Shown: piece after piece, positions 12,839 to 39,477 of the stretch | How positions within the stretch are numbered: position 1 is the stretch's first letter | Layout of the letters: the number at the start of each line of letters is the position of its first letter | Origin: Methanobrevibacter millerae | GTDB taxonomy: Archaea > Methanobacteriota > Methanobacteria > Methanobacteriales > Methanobacteriaceae | Length of the DNA stretch: 64,000 bases | Reading direction: 5' to 3' | Assembly (NCBI RefSeq): GCF_001477655.1 | Contig: NZ_CP011266.1 | Span: forward strand, 62,001-126,000 | Made by a program: the position numbers and the translations under genes | The notes under the pieces: model-generated | Database searches by the model: none | Seen by the model: only the letters and a program-made list of their open reading frames with translations | What the model was told of the DNA's origin: nothing

Positions 12839-12864
12839 AATATTTCACAATTTTGTGAAATATT
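12839..12864 (-). terminator. Intrinsic-type terminator of the 12863-14308 surface gene
   Basis: A perfect 12-base inverted repeat (AATATTTCACAA at 12839-12850 and its complement at 12853-12864) has a two-base loop. On the minus strand it leads into a T-rich tract (complement of 12826-12838). It overlaps the stop codon of the gene. Confidence 0.75.
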
Positions 12865-14308
12865 ATAAATTGTGCTTTGAATAGGTAGCACAAAAAATAG
12901 CTAATAAAATGATTATTGCAATTGCAGTATAAACAATATTAAAAGGATTACCACTGAAAGTTATTGAATTAGGGATATTCTCCTTTAAATTACTAACGAC
13001 AGTTGTATTATTATTGCTGTCTGTTTTATTTGTTGTTGTATTTGTTGAATTAATAAATTCACTTATAAATCTATTAATAATGTTTTTACCAACAATCTTG
13101 TGGTAATTATTTTGTGGAGGGAAATACTTTTCATATAATCCCATTTTATATGCTATATGGTCTCCCTGTTTTTTAATATCATTGGATACATGCAATTCAG
13201 AGTCATATGCCAGTGCATATGAGCAGATATCAGTATTGTCCGTGCTGCTTACCCATAAATAATAAAATATCAAATCCTTCCATAATGGAGTATGTATAGG
13301 AAATATATTTTTGTTCAGTTCCAATCCAAGCACCTCAGAAATTCCATCGATTGCACTTTCGGTACTTGTGTTATTTATTTTAACTTCACCTGCTGAAGTT
13401 AATACATAAAGATATGGATAACCTTTTTGAATATAAATACCCTGCGATTTGAAATAATTTAAAGCTTTTATGGAAGCGTTAACACCAATTTCTTTAATCA
13501 CATTTTCATTAAGGCTTAAATCTAGAACTTCATCCGTAGATTTGTTTACCATATCAACAGTGACATACGCTTTTTTACCTGGATTTTTTGACCAAATAAA
13601 AGCATTATCATCAAAGTCTCTTGAAGCGCCCAATAATGTATTTGAAGCATATTCAAGAGGTAAATCAATTTGTGGATAAAAATTATAATTATTTTGATTA
13701 CTTATAAATCCAGTGTCATGCGGTTTTTTATTTAAAGTATCATTACTTGAAATTCCAGTAATTAAGGAAGCATTGTTCCAAGAATTAGCGGAAAAACCAT
13801 CATTACTAGAAAATAGTATTTTTTCAGTTCTATTTTCATTAATTTTATTAATTAAAGATTCATCACTCATGTTTCTTTCAATTAAAGGTAACATCAAAAG
13901 ATTACAATCATTATAAGTTACATATCCATTAGGAGAATAAGTATTTTCATTTAAAACATTTTTTTCGGTTCTCTCATCAATTTTAGTTAATTTAAAAATT
14001 TCCACATCAATATTGTCAGTATTAATTTCCAAATTTTCAATATTCACATTAATCATGCTATCAATTGAGCATGTCATTTCTGATGTATTATATTCATTTT
14101 CCGCATCTGGTGAATAAATGATTTCATCTTCACTAATAGCAGAATCATGACTGTTTTCTTGCATGTCAATTGAATCGATCTGAATATTTTCCTCATAAAT
14201 TTGTGTATCTTCACAAACGTCTGTTACATTTTCGTTTGCTGAGACAACACCCATTAAACACAGTGCTAAAATCAATGAAAAAACCATGATTACACCATGT
14301 TTCATCAA
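12863..14308 (-). CDS. Anchored surface protein with one LTSAG/STEA module
   Basis: The 481-residue protein has an N-terminal signal peptide (residues 1-25, ending VSA), a long polar outer part with many N-x-S/T sites, and a C-terminal membrane helix (about 455-476) with a short basic tail. Residues 295-325 (YVLTSAGEVKINNTSTESAIDG) and the following PIHTPLWKDLIFYYLW match a module that occurs twice in the FmdE-domain protein at 33664-36546. The HxHxC FmdE motif itself is absent here. An Asn/Thr linker precedes the anchor. It is divergent from ilvC. Function is unknown; shared architecture suggests a common ligand or partner with the FmdE protein. Confidence 0.7.
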   Translation of the reverse strand: MMKHGVIMVFSLILALCLMGVVSANENVTDVCEDTQIYEENIQIDSIDMQENSHDSAISEDEIIYSPDAENEYNTSEMTCSIDSMINVNIENLEINTDNIDVEIFKLTKIDERTEKNVLNENTYSPNGYVTYNDCNLLMLPLIERNMSDESLINKINENRTEKILFSSNDGFSANSWNNASLITGISSNDTLNKKPHDTGFISNQNNYNFYPQIDLPLEYASNTLLGASRDFDDNAFIWSKNPGKKAYVTVDMVNKSTDEVLDLSLNENVIKEIGVNASIKALNYFKSQGIYIQKGYPYLYVLTSAGEVKINNTSTESAIDGISEVLGLELNKNIFPIHTPLWKDLIFYYLWVSSTDNTDICSYALAYDSELHVSNDIKKQGDHIAYKMGLYEKYFPPQNNYHKIVGKNIINRFISEFINSTNTTTNKTDSNNNTTVVSNLKENIPNSITFSGNPFNIVYTAIAIIILLAIFCATYSKHNL

Positions 14309-31999: not shown

Positions 32000-32024
32000 G
32001 TAAAAACCTAAATCACTTTTTTTT
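31995..32024 (+). terminator. Terminator after the iron-sulfur flavoprotein gene
   Basis: TTTAGGT (31995-32001) pairs with ACCTAAA (32006-32012) around four A residues, followed by TCAC and a T-run from 32017. It includes the stop codon of the gene and touches the end of the convergent gene. Confidence 0.65.
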
Positions 32025-32492
32025 CATTATTAAAACACCACATCCTACACCAATGATTATTCCGATAACTGCTCCAATAACTAGTGGCAGTCCAAAACTA
32101 TTTCCGTTTTGGGGATTTTCTGTCGGTGTATTCATAACCTGGTTTAATCCTTGCAATATCGTGTCATTATTAACGTCTTTGATAACAATGATCCTATTTG
32201 ATAAATCCTGATGATTTTTTAAGAATTCATCTCCGGTATCCTGATATGCTACAAGCAGTATTCTTTTATTTGTATTGTTAATGCTGTGTTCCAGGATGTG
32301 TGCTACTTCATCCTGTGATGTGAATTTATAAACACTGATATTTTTTCCATTTGCATCAGCTATATCCTTTACGAGTTGTCCATTCGTGTCATTTGCAATA
32401 ACCATTGTATCTGCAGTAACATCAACTCCATGAGCAGATACTGCAGTTATTGCTAGAATGGATACTAATAATAAAATTAATATTTTTTTCAT
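32013..32492 (-). CDS. Small anchored ectoprotein downstream of cbiM (possible CbiN-like role)
   Basis: The 159-residue protein has a signal peptide (1-20, ending AVSA), an alpha/beta ectodomain of about 100 residues (VIANDTNGQLVKDIAD, KRILLVAYQDTG, NRIIVIKDVNND), a polar linker and a C-terminal membrane helix (about 132-155, LVIGAVIGIIIGVGCGVLI) with a KKK stop. Predicted cleavage leaves His as the first mature residue (HGVDV). Layout resembles CbiN/NikN-type accessory subunits of Co/Ni transporters only in topology; it is longer and not clearly homologous. The AGGTGAT site overlaps the cbiM stop (TAGGTGATTAAATG), so it is coupled to cbiM. Confidence 0.6.
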   Translation of the reverse strand: MKKILILLLVSILAITAVSAHGVDVTADTMVIANDTNGQLVKDIADANGKNISVYKFTSQDEVAHILEHSINNTNKRILLVAYQDTGDEFLKNHQDLSNRIIVIKDVNNDTILQGLNQVMNTPTENPQNGNSFGLPLVIGAVIGIIIGVGCGVLIMKKK

Positions 32493-32500
32493 TTAATCAC

Positions 32501-33124
32501 CTATATTTTATTTATCTCCATTATTTCGGGTTTTATTTTTTTAATTGCAGTAATAATTATTATATTTGCAAATCCTTCTATTATTGATATGAATAAGTAG
32601 AATGGAACTAAAGTTGCAAGCAAAACATCAAAATTCATTGCACCGGATATTATTAAAATTGCCACTTGTCCAAAAGTCGCCGCCATGATTCCTATTATTG
32701 TTGAGGCGAAAATTGCAACTTTTTTGTTTATGTCTTCGAATAATTTATAGAATCCATAAGTTACAAAAGACAGTATAAATCCCATTACTAGGAAGTTTGC
32801 TCCAAGAATGGTTATTCCCCCCATATTAAGCATCAATGACTGCATTATCAGACTTAAAAACGAAACTATGTTTGATGAATTCGGTCCAAGCATGATTGCT
32901 ATAAGAGGTATTAAGAAAAAGTGTATAGGAACTCCTAATGGTGATGGGATGGATAAGGATGTTACTGTAATTGTAAATACGCTAAAAATAGCAATAGATA
33001 TAATCCTTTTTTCTTTATTTTCATCTTTAGAAAATTTATAAAGGAATATTGATATTATTATTAGGGTTAATATCCAGTATATTATCGCTTGATTCAGTGG
33101 AACTATTCCATCAGGTAAATGCAT
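32501..33124 (-). CDS. cbiM: CbiM-like cobalt/nickel transport permease
   Basis: This 207-residue membrane protein begins MHLPDGIVPL, the CbiM/NikM signature in which the N-terminal Met-His pair enters the membrane and binds Co2+ or Ni2+. About six helices follow, with SIPSPLGVPIHFFLIPLIAIMLGPN and NMGGITILGANFLVMGF matching conserved loops of the family. CbiM is the substrate-specific part of an energy-coupling-factor transporter. The energising CbiQ and CbiO subunits are not in the window. AGGTGAT lies three bases before ATG 33124, and a TATA run (TTTTTATAAAA, about 33174-33184) is upstream. Ni or Co is likely, since F430 and cobamides need both. Confidence 0.82.
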   Translation of the reverse strand: MHLPDGIVPLNQAIIYWILTLIIISIFLYKFSKDENKEKRIISIAIFSVFTITVTSLSIPSPLGVPIHFFLIPLIAIMLGPNSSNIVSFLSLIMQSLMLNMGGITILGANFLVMGFILSFVTYGFYKLFEDINKKVAIFASTIIGIMAATFGQVAILIISGAMNFDVLLATLVPFYLFISIIEGFANIIIITAIKKIKPEIMEINKI

Positions 33125-33334
33125 AAAATCACCTATATTACTATTATTTATTATTTTATTTATTGTATATTAATTTTTATAAAAAAAGTATTATTTAAAT
33201 TTTTTTCTTTATTTTCTTTTTTTTCCAATAAAATTATTTAATTTTATTTAATTTTTTAAAATTCTTTTTTTTCAATATTTGTATGTCTTATAATTTTATC
33301 ATTGTCATTGTAGTTTAAATATAACATTGTTAAT

Positions 33335-33343
33335 AGTATTACT
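33335..33343. promoter_or_regulatory. AGTATTACT element, copy 1
   Basis: A 9-base near-palindrome in the cbiM/FmdE control region, repeated exactly at 33514 (complement) and 33567. Possible regulator half-site or operator. Confidence 0.35.
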
Positions 33344-33513
33344 TATTTTTTTTATCTCATTTTTATCTTTATTTTTTATTATTTTAATTATTTTTATTTA
33401 ATTTTTCATTTTATTGTTATTATATATTTAATTATTGAAATTAATTATTTAATATTTTTATTTTTTTATTTATTTGGATTTTATTCATTTTACTGTTTGT
33501 CGATTTTGAAAAA

Positions 33514-33522
33514 AGTAATACT
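33514..33522. promoter_or_regulatory. AGTAATACT element, copy 2
   Basis: Reverse-complement copy of the 9-base element, set within a longer hairpin (AAAAAGTA with TACTTTTT). Confidence 0.35.
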
Positions 33523-33566
33523 TTTTTTAATTTTTTATTAAGTTATGTAATAATTAGATTTATATT

Positions 33567-33582
33567 AGTATTACTATAAATC
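33567..33582 (+). promoter_or_regulatory. AGTATTACT element, copy 3, overlapping the TATA box of the FmdE gene
   Basis: AGTATTACT (33567-33575) is directly followed by TATAAATC. A protein bound here would cover the BRE/TATA position about 80 bases before the start codon. Confidence 0.4.
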
Positions 33583-33663
33583 TTACTTTGTATTATGTTT
33601 AATAATTTTTAGACAGAATACGACTTTAAAAAAAATTTATAAATTTATTGGGGAGGCTAAATT

Positions 33664-36546
33664 ATTAGAAAACAATTTATTGTGCTGATGATTTTGTGTG
33701 TAATCTTCACATTATTTGTTGGTGGAGTTTCTGCAGAGGATGTAACATCTGATGTGGATAATGCAGTATTGGCTGATTCAATTAGTTCTGATTTATCTCA
33801 AGTTAATGTTGCGGTAGATTTTGAATTTTCAGATGATAACAGCAAAATTACTCCAACTTTTGGTGTTGTGAATAATACAGTCATATCTCAGAATTATGAT
33901 AACTCATCAAAATATTATAATGTTAAAATTAATTCCACCGGAATTGCAGATAAGATAAATGTTTCAATCTCTGCTCCGGGTTATTTAACTCAATATAAGC
34001 TGGTAGATTCAAAAAGTGTATCTCCGGTTAATGTTAAAATGTTGGCAAGTGATAGTTATAAATTAGGTCATGATGTAACTGCAAAAGCAGATTCATTGCT
34101 TGATTTTAAAAATGCTGATGCAGTATTGGCTATTACTACTGCAGGTGTACCAAAATTAAATGGTAAAACCAGTGAAGCAGCTATTGATGGAATTCTTAAC
34201 TATGCTACTGGCTATGTTTCTTATGGTAGGGGTAATATATTAATGTTACGTCAAACTGCAGTTGATCCTATTGATTTTTGTTTTGTTACAAAAAAGGGCA
34301 ATAATCTCAATGCAGCTATATTCTTGAATGGACAAACAAAAGAGGCATATCTTGGTACAATTTCCGAATATATGACTACATCCCAATGGAATACTTTATT
34401 TAAGGCTGTTGGTGGTGAAAATGCATTTTCATTCGCTAGTTTGGCTAATGGATGGAATGATGGAGTAACCTTCGATGTTTTACAAGAAGCAGCTTTCCAT
34501 GGACACATCTGTGAAGGAACCCTAGGTGGTTATACAATAACAAAAGCATTACTTCAATATTATCCTCCAATTAAAGAAACTGGAAACGGAAAACAATCTC
34601 CTGGTGATATAACTTCCTATAAAGTATTAGGTATTCCTGGAGATTCAGCTAACGATGCTGTTATTTTCTTTTTAGATGCCACCTCTGGTAAAACATCATA
34701 TGTTGGTTTTAATACTACTTCCACAGGTGCAACTGAAAAGATGATTGGTTTTATTCGTTGGAATAGTCAAACTAACAAAGGTACCATTGTTGTAATGGAA
34801 TATGATTCTGATACAAATAAACAATTGTTTGAAAAAGAAACTGGAATTACTGGTGACGGTAGTTTGGAACAATTAAAATACAATACCTGGTGGATTAACA
34901 GAATCTATAAAAATCCTGCAAGTCTTGTTAAAATTTTAATTGAAAAAGAAGGTTTAACAAAAGAACAATATTTATATTTGGTTGGAGTTGAAGATGACGA
35001 TGAAGATGAAGAAGGTCATGTTATTAACGCTACTAATTCCCATGGATTGGATTATGCTTATATTCAAGGATTAGATTTACCTAATGCTACTCGTGACAAT
35101 GTTATCGCAAATAAAGGTTCATTAACTTATAACGATTTTAAAGATATTGGAAGTAAAGCTGCAAAAACGGCTAAAGACATTTATGAAAAAGAATTGGGTG
35201 TTAAAATACATAAAGACATGCCTAATTTGATGGTTTTAACTTCTGCCGGTTATGTAATGATTAATGAACAATCAACCGAAGCATGTTGGGATGGTTTATT
35301 TGAGGAATTAGGCTCTAGATTATCTAGAAAAACATTATTACCTAATCATAAGGCTATTTGGACACCATTATGGTTTAATTTCTTATTAAAACAAGATGAT
35401 GGTTCTTTAATGAGTATATATATGAGATACAATGAGGATGGAACATTCTTTATTGGTGAGTATAATGGAACTCAAGTATATAACATTAATATGACTACTC
35501 TCAACAATTCAGCATTATCTGGCGGAATCAGTGCCAGTGCATACCCTGATGGAAACTACTTCAGTATTCAAAGTATTTCCAATGCATGGTCTGCAGGTCC
35601 TGCATTTGATCAAATAATGTCTTTCTTATTCCATAATCATGCATGCCCTGGTGTACAGCCAGGATTTTTCATAGTTGACTATATCCAAGAAAATTTCCCA
35701 CTCAATGAAAATCAATCTTACATCTATATTGCAAACGAGCAATATTGTAAGGATGACAGTCTTGAATATATATTGGACGTATCTCCTGGTCTCGGTAATT
35801 ATCTTGTTCAAAAATTAACAAGCGATGAATATAAAGGGGCTGATGATTTAGATGAAGAAGGTATATTGATTATTTGGGATTCTGCCAATAATATTGGTCA
35901 GGCTGTATCTATTAGTTATAAATGGCCAAGTCCTGATTTAAGTGCATATGCAACTTCAGAATCTAAAAGAGCTGCTCAAATTCAAGCATTCATTGATTTA
36001 TACAATGGCAATGAAAATCCTATCTTAACTGAAAATTATCATACTGTTGCTCATGGTGACAGCAGATGGATTACTCAAGAGCAATATCAAACCATCATTT
36101 CTGGCGGTGAAGGTAGTAGCCTTAAGTATTTAAGAAGCTTAGATGATGTAAGTAAAGAGGATTTATTAAAAGCTATTGAAGAAAGTAAAGCTAATGCTGA
36201 ATCAAATAATACAAATACAAACACTAACAGTAATACTAATACTAATACTAATTCTAATAGTAATTCAAATGTTCCTTCATCCAGTTCTAATATTGGTTCA
36301 AATACTGCTCAAAGAAGTTATTCAAGTGTCGGAACTTCATCTAACAATAGGGTAAATGATGTTTCTGATGCGTCTGATGAGTCAGATAATTCTGATGGAT
36401 CTCCATCTGATTCAGGTAAATCTTATGAGGTTACTAAACAACCGGTTACTAAATCAGCTTCTAATAATAACTTAATTTATGCAGTTGTTGGAGTTTTAAT
36501 CATTGGTGTTTTATTCGGTGTTGGATATATGAGACGTAAAAACTAA
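33664..36546 (+). CDS. Anchored surface protein with two FmdE-type modules, probable ATT start
   Basis: The protein (960 residues) has a signal peptide, two copies of a composite module, a Ser/Asn linker (about 855-910) and a C-terminal membrane helix (about 933-953) ending MRRKN. Each module has an LTSAG/STEA block (about 155-180 and 522-548) followed by an FmdE-like domain with HGHICEG (His279-Cys283) and HNHACPG (His657-Cys661). The HxHxC set is the family's metal site, and both copies keep it. FmdE domains were named from formylmethanofuran dehydrogenase operons; their reaction is unknown. Starting at GTG 33682 would remove all positive charges before the hydrophobic core. ATT 33664, seven bases after GGGGAGG, restores RKQFIVLMILCVIF, a proper signal peptide; an in-frame TAA at 33658 limits the start to ATT 33661 or 33664. 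Confidence 0.8.
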   Translation: MRKQFIVLMILCVIFTLFVGGVSAEDVTSDVDNAVLADSISSDLSQVNVAVDFEFSDDNSKITPTFGVVNNTVISQNYDNSSKYYNVKINSTGIADKINVSISAPGYLTQYKLVDSKSVSPVNVKMLASDSYKLGHDVTAKADSLLDFKNADAVLAITTAGVPKLNGKTSEAAIDGILNYATGYVSYGRGNILMLRQTAVDPIDFCFVTKKGNNLNAAIFLNGQTKEAYLGTISEYMTTSQWNTLFKAVGGENAFSFASLANGWNDGVTFDVLQEAAFHGHICEGTLGGYTITKALLQYYPPIKETGNGKQSPGDITSYKVLGIPGDSANDAVIFFLDATSGKTSYVGFNTTSTGATEKMIGFIRWNSQTNKGTIVVMEYDSDTNKQLFEKETGITGDGSLEQLKYNTWWINRIYKNPASLVKILIEKEGLTKEQYLYLVGVEDDDEDEEGHVINATNSHGLDYAYIQGLDLPNATRDNVIANKGSLTYNDFKDIGSKAAKTAKDIYEKELGVKIHKDMPNLMVLTSAGYVMINEQSTEACWDGLFEELGSRLSRKTLLPNHKAIWTPLWFNFLLKQDDGSLMSIYMRYNEDGTFFIGEYNGTQVYNINMTTLNNSALSGGISASAYPDGNYFSIQSISNAWSAGPAFDQIMSFLFHNHACPGVQPGFFIVDYIQENFPLNENQSYIYIANEQYCKDDSLEYILDVSPGLGNYLVQKLTSDEYKGADDLDEEGILIIWDSANNIGQAVSISYKWPSPDLSAYATSESKRAAQIQAFIDLYNGNENPILTENYHTVAHGDSRWITQEQYQTIISGGEGSSLKYLRSLDDVSKEDLLKAIEESKANAESNNTNTNTNSNTNTNTNSNSNSNVPSSSSNIGSNTAQRSYSSVGTSSNNRVNDVSDASDESDNSDGSPSDSGKSYEVTKQPVTKSASNNNLIYAVVGVLIIGVLFGVGYMRRKN

Positions 36547-36596
36547 TTTAATAAGATTATTATTCAATAATCTTTTTTATTTTTTTCGTGATTAAT

Positions 36597-37064
36597 ATGA
36601 ATTATAAATTTTTAGCAATATTTGTTTCTGTTTTATTTGTTTTGTCTTGTTTGGGAATGGCTTTTGCACATCCAGGCCATGGCAGCGAATATGTTGAAGA
36701 GGTATCTTCATCTTCAGATAGTTCCCATAGTAGTTCTGTTGCTCAAAGTTCTAATTCTGGAAGCGGGTCTTCTTCTAGTTCTGCAGGTTCTTCTGGTGGT
36801 TCTTCTTCTAGTTCTGCAGGTTCTTCTGGTGGTTCTTCTTCTCAATCTTCTAGTTCTGCAAGCGGCGACAAATCAGTTAATTCAGATAATGATGTTAAAA
36901 ATACAAATGAAAGTCTAAATAATACAACTTCTAATGTAAATTCCTCAATCAATGAAACAAATGATGGTAATGAGTTATTCAGTTTGAATAATATTATTAT
37001 TCTTATATTTGTGTTTATTATTGGGTTTTTAGCAACAATATTAATATTTAAATTATTTAAGTAG
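36597..37064 (+). CDS. His/Ser-rich anchored surface protein
   Basis: The 155-residue protein has a signal peptide (1-24, ending GMAFA) whose removal would expose HPGHGSEYVEEV as mature N-terminus, a Ser/Gly-rich stretch (about 35-85) including a perfect 11-residue tandem duplication, an Asn/Thr region with glycosylation-type sites, and a C-terminal membrane helix (about 130-152). The HPGH start could bind a metal ion. GTGATTAAT serves as ribosome site, so ATG 36597 is chosen over GTG 36588. It lies 50 bases after the FmdE gene on the same strand and is probably co-transcribed, which suggests a shared role at the surface. Confidence 0.65.
   Translation: MNYKFLAIFVSVLFVLSCLGMAFAHPGHGSEYVEEVSSSSDSSHSSSVAQSSNSGSGSSSSSAGSSGGSSSSSAGSSGGSSSQSSSSASGDKSVNSDNDVKNTNESLNNTTSNVNSSINETNDGNELFSLNNIIILIFVFIIGFLATILIFKLFK
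36771..36836 (+). repeat. 33-bp perfect tandem repeat, two copies
   Basis: Units 36771-36803 and 36804-36836 are identical (starting TCTTCTAGTTCTGCAGG) and encode the 11-residue SSSSAGSSGGS-type stretch. Such repeats change copy number by slippage, so linker length may vary between strains. Confidence 0.9.
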
Positions 37065-38715: not shown

Positions 38716-38784
38716 TATATAGTAAATCTTATTTTATATAACAAACAAAATAAATAATGTTATATATCTTTGGAGGATTATAAT

Positions 38785-39477
38785 ATGACTGATGTAAAAG
38801 CTGGTGTCGAATATAAGATTAATGTAGATGGTAATTCTTTTCTTCTTGACAGCAAAAAATACCAACTACTTGAATCTATTTTGGATACTGGTTCCTTAAC
38901 GGAATCTGCCAAAATGGTCAAAATTTCTTATGGGACCGCACTCAACTATATTGACAAAATTGAATCCACTCTTCAAGTAAAAATTGTGAGTACTTCTAAA
39001 GGAGGTAAAGGTGGTGGTGGGGGCACCACTTTGACTGAAGAAGGTTATTCTATTTTGAAAGAGTGTAAAAAAATCAATGCAATCATGGAGCTTCACAAGG
39101 ATGTAAATGAAATCGAAGCTGAAGTTTTGGCAATTGATCAATCAAAAGGGGTCATGACTGTTAAAATGAATAGTTTTGAGGTTAACATTCCTTTGAATAA
39201 GAACTATGCTGTAGGTGATAAGGTTTTGGCATTGATAAGCTATGACAATATCTTTTTGATGCTGGAACCGCAAAAATCAAGTATCCGTAATATAATAAAG
39301 GGTACTATTGTTGAAATGAGACTCAATAATGAGATTATTCGCGTTAATGTGGATGTTGGGGGAGTCAATATCTATTCAGATATTACTGTATCCGCTGAAA
39401 AGGAATTAAATCTTACTATTGGTAAAGAAATCTATATTGGATTTAAAGCAATGTCTGTGGCTACATTAAAATTGTAG
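38785..39477 (+). CDS. ModE-family transcription regulator with two TOBE domains
   Basis: Residues 1-105 form the LysR/ModE-type winged helix (LLESILDTGSLTESAKMVKI and the glycine-rich loop SKGGKGGGGGTTLTEEG, diagnostic for ModE). Two TOBE/MopI-like domains follow (about 115-165 and 170-230), which bind molybdate or tungstate in characterised members. It would control molybdenum uptake or formylmethanofuran dehydrogenase genes. ATG 38785 has GGAGG eight bases upstream; TTG 38770 is rejected. A ferredoxin gene follows 20 bases later. Whether this protein binds oxyanion is inferred from domain content only. Confidence 0.88.
   Translation: MTDVKAGVEYKINVDGNSFLLDSKKYQLLESILDTGSLTESAKMVKISYGTALNYIDKIESTLQVKIVSTSKGGKGGGGGTTLTEEGYSILKECKKINAIMELHKDVNEIEAEVLAIDQSKGVMTVKMNSFEVNIPLNKNYAVGDKVLALISYDNIFLMLEPQKSSIRNIIKGTIVEMRLNNEIIRVNVDVGGVNIYSDITVSAEKELNLTIGKEIYIGFKAMSVATLKL

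Follow-up and report, generated by a model that had tools for sequence, protein, structure and literature searches.

Methanogens need much nickel, for methyl-coenzyme M reductase, [NiFe]-hydrogenases and CO dehydrogenase, and the supply of the metal bears on how much methane rumen and digester methanogens produce; to our knowledge, how they acquire nickel that is scarce or bound is poorly understood. A locus within a stretch of 64,000 nt from the class Methanobacteria (hereafter, the window; G000:C1:62001-126000 of a single-contig genome of 2.54 Mb) raises the question of which metal its surface proteins handle, and for what transporter. The locus is composed of two divergent gene pairs: cbiM and the gene of a small anchored ectoprotein on the minus strand, 8 nt apart, and on the plus strand the genes of a surface protein with two FmdE domains (the double-FmdE protein) and of a second anchored protein that begins with HPGHG in its mature form (the HPGHG protein). 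With moderate confidence, we propose that these genes form the surface arm of a system with which the class takes up nickel when it is limiting, and that this arm would capture complexed nickel for CbiM. The basis in sequence comprises the parts themselves, their conserved ligands, their genomic linkage, a common C-terminal tail and common operators.

Putative operators shared with nickel genes

The divergent control region (33125-33663; 539 bp, G+C content 11.7%) contains three copies of the palindrome AGTAWTACT, where none of 5000 dinucleotide shuffles reached two. A census by pattern search and from fetched genome regions found 66 such sites in the window genome. Fifteen gaps between neighbouring sites are of 300 bp or less, versus an expectation of 0.5 and at most 6 in any of 20000 simulations; the reversed control pattern gave no gap of this size. 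The upstream regions of FmdE and cbiM genes in relatives carry the palindrome in 29 of 35 cases, with 58 sites altogether; the control pattern is found in 1 of the 35.

Clusters of sites precede a nickel-type energy-coupling factor (ECF) operon, NikMNQO (L037; NikM2-like at 5e-31, versus 2e-13 for cobalt CbiM), and the genes of a NikA-like binding protein (L140), the sirohydrochlorin nickelochelatase CfbA (L142; NF033198 231 bits, cut-off 120) and a heavy-metal P1B ATPase (L038). Another cluster precedes mcrB, in the operon of a nickel enzyme (L139, G000:C1:1496000-1514000; sites 12388 and 12684), and a single site lies 187 bp upstream of an operon encoding a CobN-like protein and motor components (L080). 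There is no site upstream of the cobalt-type CbiMNQO (L038; 3.5e-71 to cobalt CbiM), nor at the gene of a ModE-type regulator near the locus. The genome has one NikR gene, and the nickel-responsive repressor acting at these putative operators is probably NikR, whose binding to them we assume.

Published proteomics point the same way. In Methanothermobacter marburgensis, CobN1, NikR1 and possible metal-chelating proteins are highly made only under nickel limitation, and the transporter MTBMA_c10530 is raised (PMC12350162). A CobN-like set, MTBMA_c10550-10570, was listed by Kaster et al. (PMC3087415). In genome G143 (L161) the CobN adjoining the FmdE gene is present as three open reading frames (ORFs) followed by DUF2162, ExbB and DUF2149 genes; MTBMA_c10550-10570 appears to match this three-piece CobN, and MTBMA_c10530 would then be one of the DUF2162/ExbB/DUF2149 neighbours. 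Because the operators are common to nickel genes, and in view of these proteomic data, the choice of metal can be narrowed to nickel, which we regard as highly likely in preference to molybdenum or tungsten.

Other sites of the same pattern were also seen. A pair (L138 sites 3729 and 3761; G000:C1:1487728-1487768) lies between genes of very large surface proteins, just upstream of a CobN-like gene, and these surface proteins may belong to the same nickel response. A pair in L141 (sites 6128 and 6340; G000:C1:2251127-2251347), upstream of a CoaB-like protein of 219 residues adjoining a fibrillarin-like gene, has no evident nickel link. Sites 6279-6637 of L139 (1502278-1502636) lie 113-470 bp upstream of a 121-residue ORF that is followed by an FdhA/FwdB-like ORF; regulation of mtd by these sites was rejected, as they lie behind mtd. 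It is possible that the 121-residue/FdhA-like unit is a nickel-limitation substitute like the Elp proteins (PMC12350162). The CfbA-like protein (L142 5552-6454; G000:C1:2530551-2531453) consists of two fused CbiX-type units and contains a long segment rich in His, HSHHHHHDHDHGHHHEHHHHHD.

Conservation of the gene neighbourhood

The neighbourhood was compared in 31 Methanobacteriaceae genomes, a sample drawn from best matches and hence biased toward intact copies. In 28 of them no more than 4 kb separates cbiM and the ectoprotein gene from the FmdE gene, and these two always occur as a pair. Genes for DUF2162, a MotA/TolQ/ExbB protein and DUF2149 are found in the cluster, again within 4 kb, in 17 of the 31 (ExbB and DUF2149 only in G017); in three further genomes these motor genes stand behind CobN-like genes. 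The whole chain, FmdE-HPGHG-CbiM-ectoprotein-CobN-DUF2162-ExbB-DUF2149, is present in L112 and L088. The sole DUF2149 gene of the window genome lies at 1476 kb, 1.38 Mb from the window locus, within CobN-DUF2162-ExbB-DUF2149, and the system is therefore divided between two loci in this genome. The window locus would correspond to roughly one half of a larger system that also includes a CobN/HmuS-like chelatase and an ExbB-type motor. More broadly, 120 of the 152 genomes searched from the phylum, spread over all four families, match a profile of the double-FmdE protein; partial relatives are included in this count.

An earlier note on this DNA had read the locus as a metal system that faces outward and is connected with CbiM. 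The four genes lie where it placed them, and the neighbourhood comparison that it proposed bears out the tie to CbiM; loss of the His and Cys residues in relatives, which it named as grounds for abandoning the idea, was not seen. Supported as it is on a surface metal system, it stopped short of the palindromes, of the linkage to DUF2162-ExbB-DUF2149 and CobN, and of the common tail described below.

Contigs with the archaeal locus were also encountered among bacterial metagenome-assembled genomes (L111 and L123, filed under Bacillales and actinobacteria). Both are probably methanogen contigs and binning errors.

The double-FmdE surface protein

Pfam family PF02663 matches two stretches of the double-FmdE protein (75.5 bits in total), and in a whole-genome profile search the single domains scored 40.8 and 42.2 bits, each above the 22.9 cut-off. 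The His and Cys of both HxHxC motifs are unchanged in an alignment of 18 diverse relatives. A fourth ligand is provided in domain 2 by C695, and an invariant Ser occupies that place in domain 1. The predicted ectodomain (pLDDT, the predicted local distance difference test, 86; pTM, the predicted template modelling score, 0.87) has as its top fold match FmdE of Desulfitobacterium (PDB code: 2glz; E 3e-3), whose His/His/Cys/Cys site carries zinc and nickel mixed (PMC2954224). A sequence search of the PDB with the entire protein as query gave no match. The likeness to the family lies in the fold and the His/His/Cys(/Cys) site; the solved members are small, whereas the window protein has two copies, accompanied by additional domains (hereafter, X domains), and is predicted to be secreted and anchored.

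Among 56 genomes of one bacterial class (that around L129), 9 encode single X-FmdE proteins with a signal peptide. The genes of these proteins adjoin a TonB-dependent receptor gene in L129, L167, L168, L169 and L170; in the last two of these loci a CooC-like ATPase gene is also nearby. In L130, a plain FmdE gene is close to CbiM-type ECF genes. Unlike the window protein, the bacterial X-FmdE proteins have a single unit, lack the C-terminal tail and are not accompanied by CbiM. TonB-dependent receptors are ExbB-powered, and the bacterial loci fit extracytoplasmic handling of metal complexes with ExbB/TonB power.

CbiM and its anchored partners

The window CbiM matches PF01891 with 147.6 bits (cut-off 23.1) and scores under every NCBIfam cut-off; judged on its sequence, it is a CbiM/NikM-type S component belonging to a new subfamily. 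H2 and H68 are retained in an alignment of 29 copies. The closest solved chain is NikM2, with whose His2 and His67 they align; these two residues and Met1 bind nickel in NikM2. No CbiQ or dedicated CbiO gene adjoins the window cbiM, and of the three CbiQ genes in the genome two belong to complete Ni/Co sets and one to another ECF set. Among the relatives' loci tested for CbiQ or dedicated CbiO none was found, except for one solitary NikQ-like gene in G006 (L068 9546-10313; 40% identity), which is oriented divergently to the FmdE gene, separated from it by AGTAWTACT sites, and has no adjoining CbiO. A borrowed ECF module must therefore be kept in view, and ATPase-free transport by CbiM is put forward as a proposal only.

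Neither the ectoprotein nor the HPGHG protein has an acceptable match in Pfam. In the ectoprotein the N-terminal His of the mature chain (cleavage A/HGVDVT) is invariant, as is an HxxEH motif, and the protein is predicted to be exposed, with this His as its leading residue. A fold search with the model returned generic Rossmann-like matches only, none below E 0.001, and BLAST against CbiN/NikN found no similarity. The gene pair resembles NikMNQO and CbiMNQO in having a CbiM-type S component with Met1-His2 and H68, and a small membrane partner that has a single loop outside and takes the position of NikN/CbiN; it differs in the absence of adjacent CbiQ/CbiO and in the Rossmann-like ectodomain and N-terminal His of that partner. 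The ectoprotein is a probable functional stand-in for NikN/CbiN. In the HPGHG protein, the motif follows the predicted signal peptide in nearly all relatives.

The CobN-like chelatase, the motor and a common tail

The CobN-like protein of the window genome (at 1.48 Mb, outside the window) matches PF02514 with 714.7 bits, and its closest solved chain is the heme dechelatase HmuS (5e-89), followed by CobN (3e-72) and ChlH. Its operon (L080) includes the ExbB-type and DUF2149 genes. The C-termini of FmdE and CobN-like proteins are alike, with K-S/A-Y-E, some 15-20 residues, one transmembrane segment (TM) and a short basic end. When all ORFs of the fetched loci were scanned, this tail was found in about 60 FmdE and CobN-like sequences, with 1 chance match, and the two kinds of protein are therefore read as clients of one membrane partner. 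The ExbB proteins conserve GPTLGLMGT plus a second Thr pair, and the DUF2149 proteins an Asp at the start of the TM, residues that would be expected of ExbB/ExbD-type channels. Coupling of the FmdE protein to the ExbB/DUF2149 motor, as suggested by these features, seems to us an evenly balanced proposition.

In two Methanothermobacter genomes (L161 6866-11794 and L089 9605-14479) the CobN-like gene is broken up into three or four frames, whereas it is intact in others; yet production of the protein under nickel limitation is reported. The broken gene may reflect frameshifting, a sequencing error or a split gene.

The cells of Methanobacteria have no outer membrane. The set of genes resembles the hmuYRSTUV system in that the gene of a membrane-anchored CobN/HmuS-like chelatase is accompanied by those of a MotA/TolQ/ExbB protein and DUF2149. 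The hmu operon of Bacteroidota, which serves heme iron, continues after hmuS with hmuT, the ExbB-type hmuU and the DUF2149 gene hmuV (PMC10434189, PMC12583661). The archaeal clusters keep the chelatase and motor genes in hmu order, with DUF2162; they differ in lacking an outer membrane and apparently also HmuY and a TonB-dependent receptor, and in adding the double-FmdE protein, the linkage to CbiM and nickel-type regulation. No HmuR or HmuY gene was recognised beside the archaeal loci listed, where not every ORF was identified. Since receptor and hemophore were not seen and the evidence on the metal points to nickel, we do not call the archaeal set an hmu operon; by analogy of parts, it may work like one. 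The use of the archaeal homologues was described as unclear in the HmuS paper (PMC12583661), and in the literature searched we found no mention of DUF2162 and no account joining FmdE, CbiM and ExbB.

Proposed mechanism and alternatives

Several elements of the scheme are inferred from these features: that nickel or one of its complexes sits in the FmdE sites, that the tails dock on the motor, that metal is stripped from complexes, in what order it is handed over, and that NikR is the regulator. The double-FmdE protein would take nickel, probably complexed, into its His/His/Cys sites outside the membrane, in cooperation with secreted CobN/HmuS-like chelatases. The K-S/A-Y-E tail and TM of both kinds of protein would probably dock on a DUF2162-ExbB-DUF2149 complex, and this proton-driven motor would supply the force for release of the metal or for resetting the site. 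The HPGHG protein and the ectoprotein could then, through their N-terminal His residues, relay freed nickel to the Met-His site of CbiM; transport through the membrane would be by CbiM on its own or together with a borrowed CbiQO pair. One nickel-responsive repressor, probably NikR, would govern every unit at the AGTAWTACT sites.

This scheme would give a candidate function to three orphans, namely the archaeal CobN/HmuS homologues, the DUF2162/DUF2149 proteins that accompany ExbB where an outer membrane is lacking, and the surface FmdE domains. It predicts that nickel genes form a regulon whose operator can be named, and it ties the nickel-limitation proteomics to a concrete multi-gene system. 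In its strongest form it describes a new kind of importer, in which FmdE and CobN/HmuS-like clients docked on the ExbB/DUF2149 motor strip nickel at the wall from complexes or from tetrapyrroles, for instance F430 that has been released, and feed an ATPase-free CbiM. If true, this would place a TonB-like energy-transfer device in a cell without an outer membrane. Taken jointly, this is a tentative and rather doubtful proposal.

Several observations weigh against the surface-arm proposal. The motor is unlinked to the FmdE/cbiM locus in the window genome and its closest relatives, and the Methanothermobacter-type chain, FmdE-CobN-DUF2162-ExbB-DUF2149, has no cbiM neighbour. FmdE domain 1 lacks the second Cys, and zinc exceeds nickel in the crystal of 2glz (PMC2954224). 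The published locus tags were matched to the FmdE-CobN operon by gene order, not by an annotated record, and the NikQ-like gene of G006 may mean that CbiM uses an ordinary ECF module.

Some of these points lead to the alternative that survives best, which also concerns nickel uptake. CbiM could act as a standard ECF S component with CbiQO borrowed from another set, such as NikMNQO, with the motor serving the CobN-like chelatases only and the FmdE protein passively storing or concentrating metal at the wall. The complete NikMNQO in the same AGTAWTACT regulon and the NikQ-like gene of L068 support the borrowing, and the linkage of the motor to CobN in the window genome supports the restricted role of the motor. 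Against the latter, in 17 of the 31 genomes the motor genes come immediately after FmdE-HPGHG or CbiM-ectoprotein, and the FmdE protein has the same tail as the CobN-like clients; against the former, the sampled loci are without CbiQ, L068 excepted, and without a dedicated CbiO. We consider this account plausible, if short of probable.

The same architecture could conceivably serve cobalt or corrinoids, with cobalt taken from cobamides and given to CbiM, as the family name of CbiM, its CobN-like partners and the NCBIfam label of cobalt transporter on its homologues would suggest. The operators, however, stand at the nickel-type ECF operon and CfbA and not at the cobalt-type CbiMNQO, NikM2 is the closest solved S component, and the related M. 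marburgensis operon responds to nickel limitation (PMC12350162), so that a cobalt system appears improbable. Of the "Ni, Co or another metal" of the earlier note, nickel is thus upheld by the operators and the proteomics, and cobalt is not.

It would be very surprising if the FmdE and HPGHG proteins were structural wall proteins or adhesins adjoining cbiM by chance: their Asn/Ser-rich linkers and TM anchors resemble those of wall proteins and paralogues without cbiM exist (L072, L078, L061-L063), but the metal motifs are invariant, the gene order is fixed and the operators are of the nickel type. The molybdenum or tungsten alternative that the earlier note drew from the ModE-type gene, which recurs near the locus in several genera, can be put aside as scarcely credible, because AGTAWTACT sites are shared by the locus and nickel genes with none at the ModE-type gene, the relatives of CbiM, FmdE and HmuS handle divalent cations, and the order FmdE-HPGHG-CbiM-ectoprotein is kept without ModE in many genomes.

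Coordinates of the locus and related window features

Table 1. Features of the locus and its surroundings (positions in the window)
Feature	Position	Strand	Remarks
Anchored ectoprotein, 159 residues	32013-32492	-	Signal peptide, Rossmann-like ectodomain, mature N-terminal His (HGVDVT), HxxEH, C-terminal TM
CbiM/NikM-type S component, 207 residues	32501-33124	-	Met1-His2 and H68 kept; CbiQ/CbiO not adjacent
Putative operator copy 1	33335-33343		AGTATTACT; AGTAWTACT site
Putative operator copy 2	33514-33522		AGTAATACT; AGTAWTACT site
Putative operator copy 3	33567-33575		AGTATTACT; AGTAWTACT site
Double-FmdE surface protein, 960 residues (ATT 33664) or 954 residues (GTG 33682)	33664-36546	+	Signal peptide, beta-sandwich, X-FmdE twice, Asn/Ser-rich linker, tail, TM
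HGHIC metal motif, FmdE domain 1 (H279, H281, C283)	34498-34512	+	Invariant in 18 relatives
HNHAC metal motif, FmdE domain 2 (H657, H659, C661)	35632-35646	+	Invariant in 18 relatives
C695, fourth ligand of FmdE domain 2	35746-35748	+	
KSYEV tail motif before C-terminal TM	36418-36432	+	Common to CobN-like proteins
HPGHG protein, 158 residues	36588-37064	+	Signal peptide, mature HPGHGxEY, Ser-rich stalk, C-terminal TM
ModE-type gene	38770-39477		TIGR00637 69.7 bits (cut-off 98.5, not reached); TOBE domain

The double-FmdE frame probably starts at ATT 33664 and not at GTG 33682. ATT 33664 is the better placed start because GGAGG is found at 33651-33655, 8 nt upstream, and orthologues have MRKQ-like starts; the length of 960 residues given by the earlier note fits this start.

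A secreted and anchored paralogue of 481 residues is encoded elsewhere in the window (12863-14308, minus strand). It keeps the X-domain sequence and has neither an FmdE domain nor the KSYE tail. The window copy is an orphan; in relatives (L083 and L084) the genes of such proteins lie directly upstream of DUF2162-ExbB-DUF2149.

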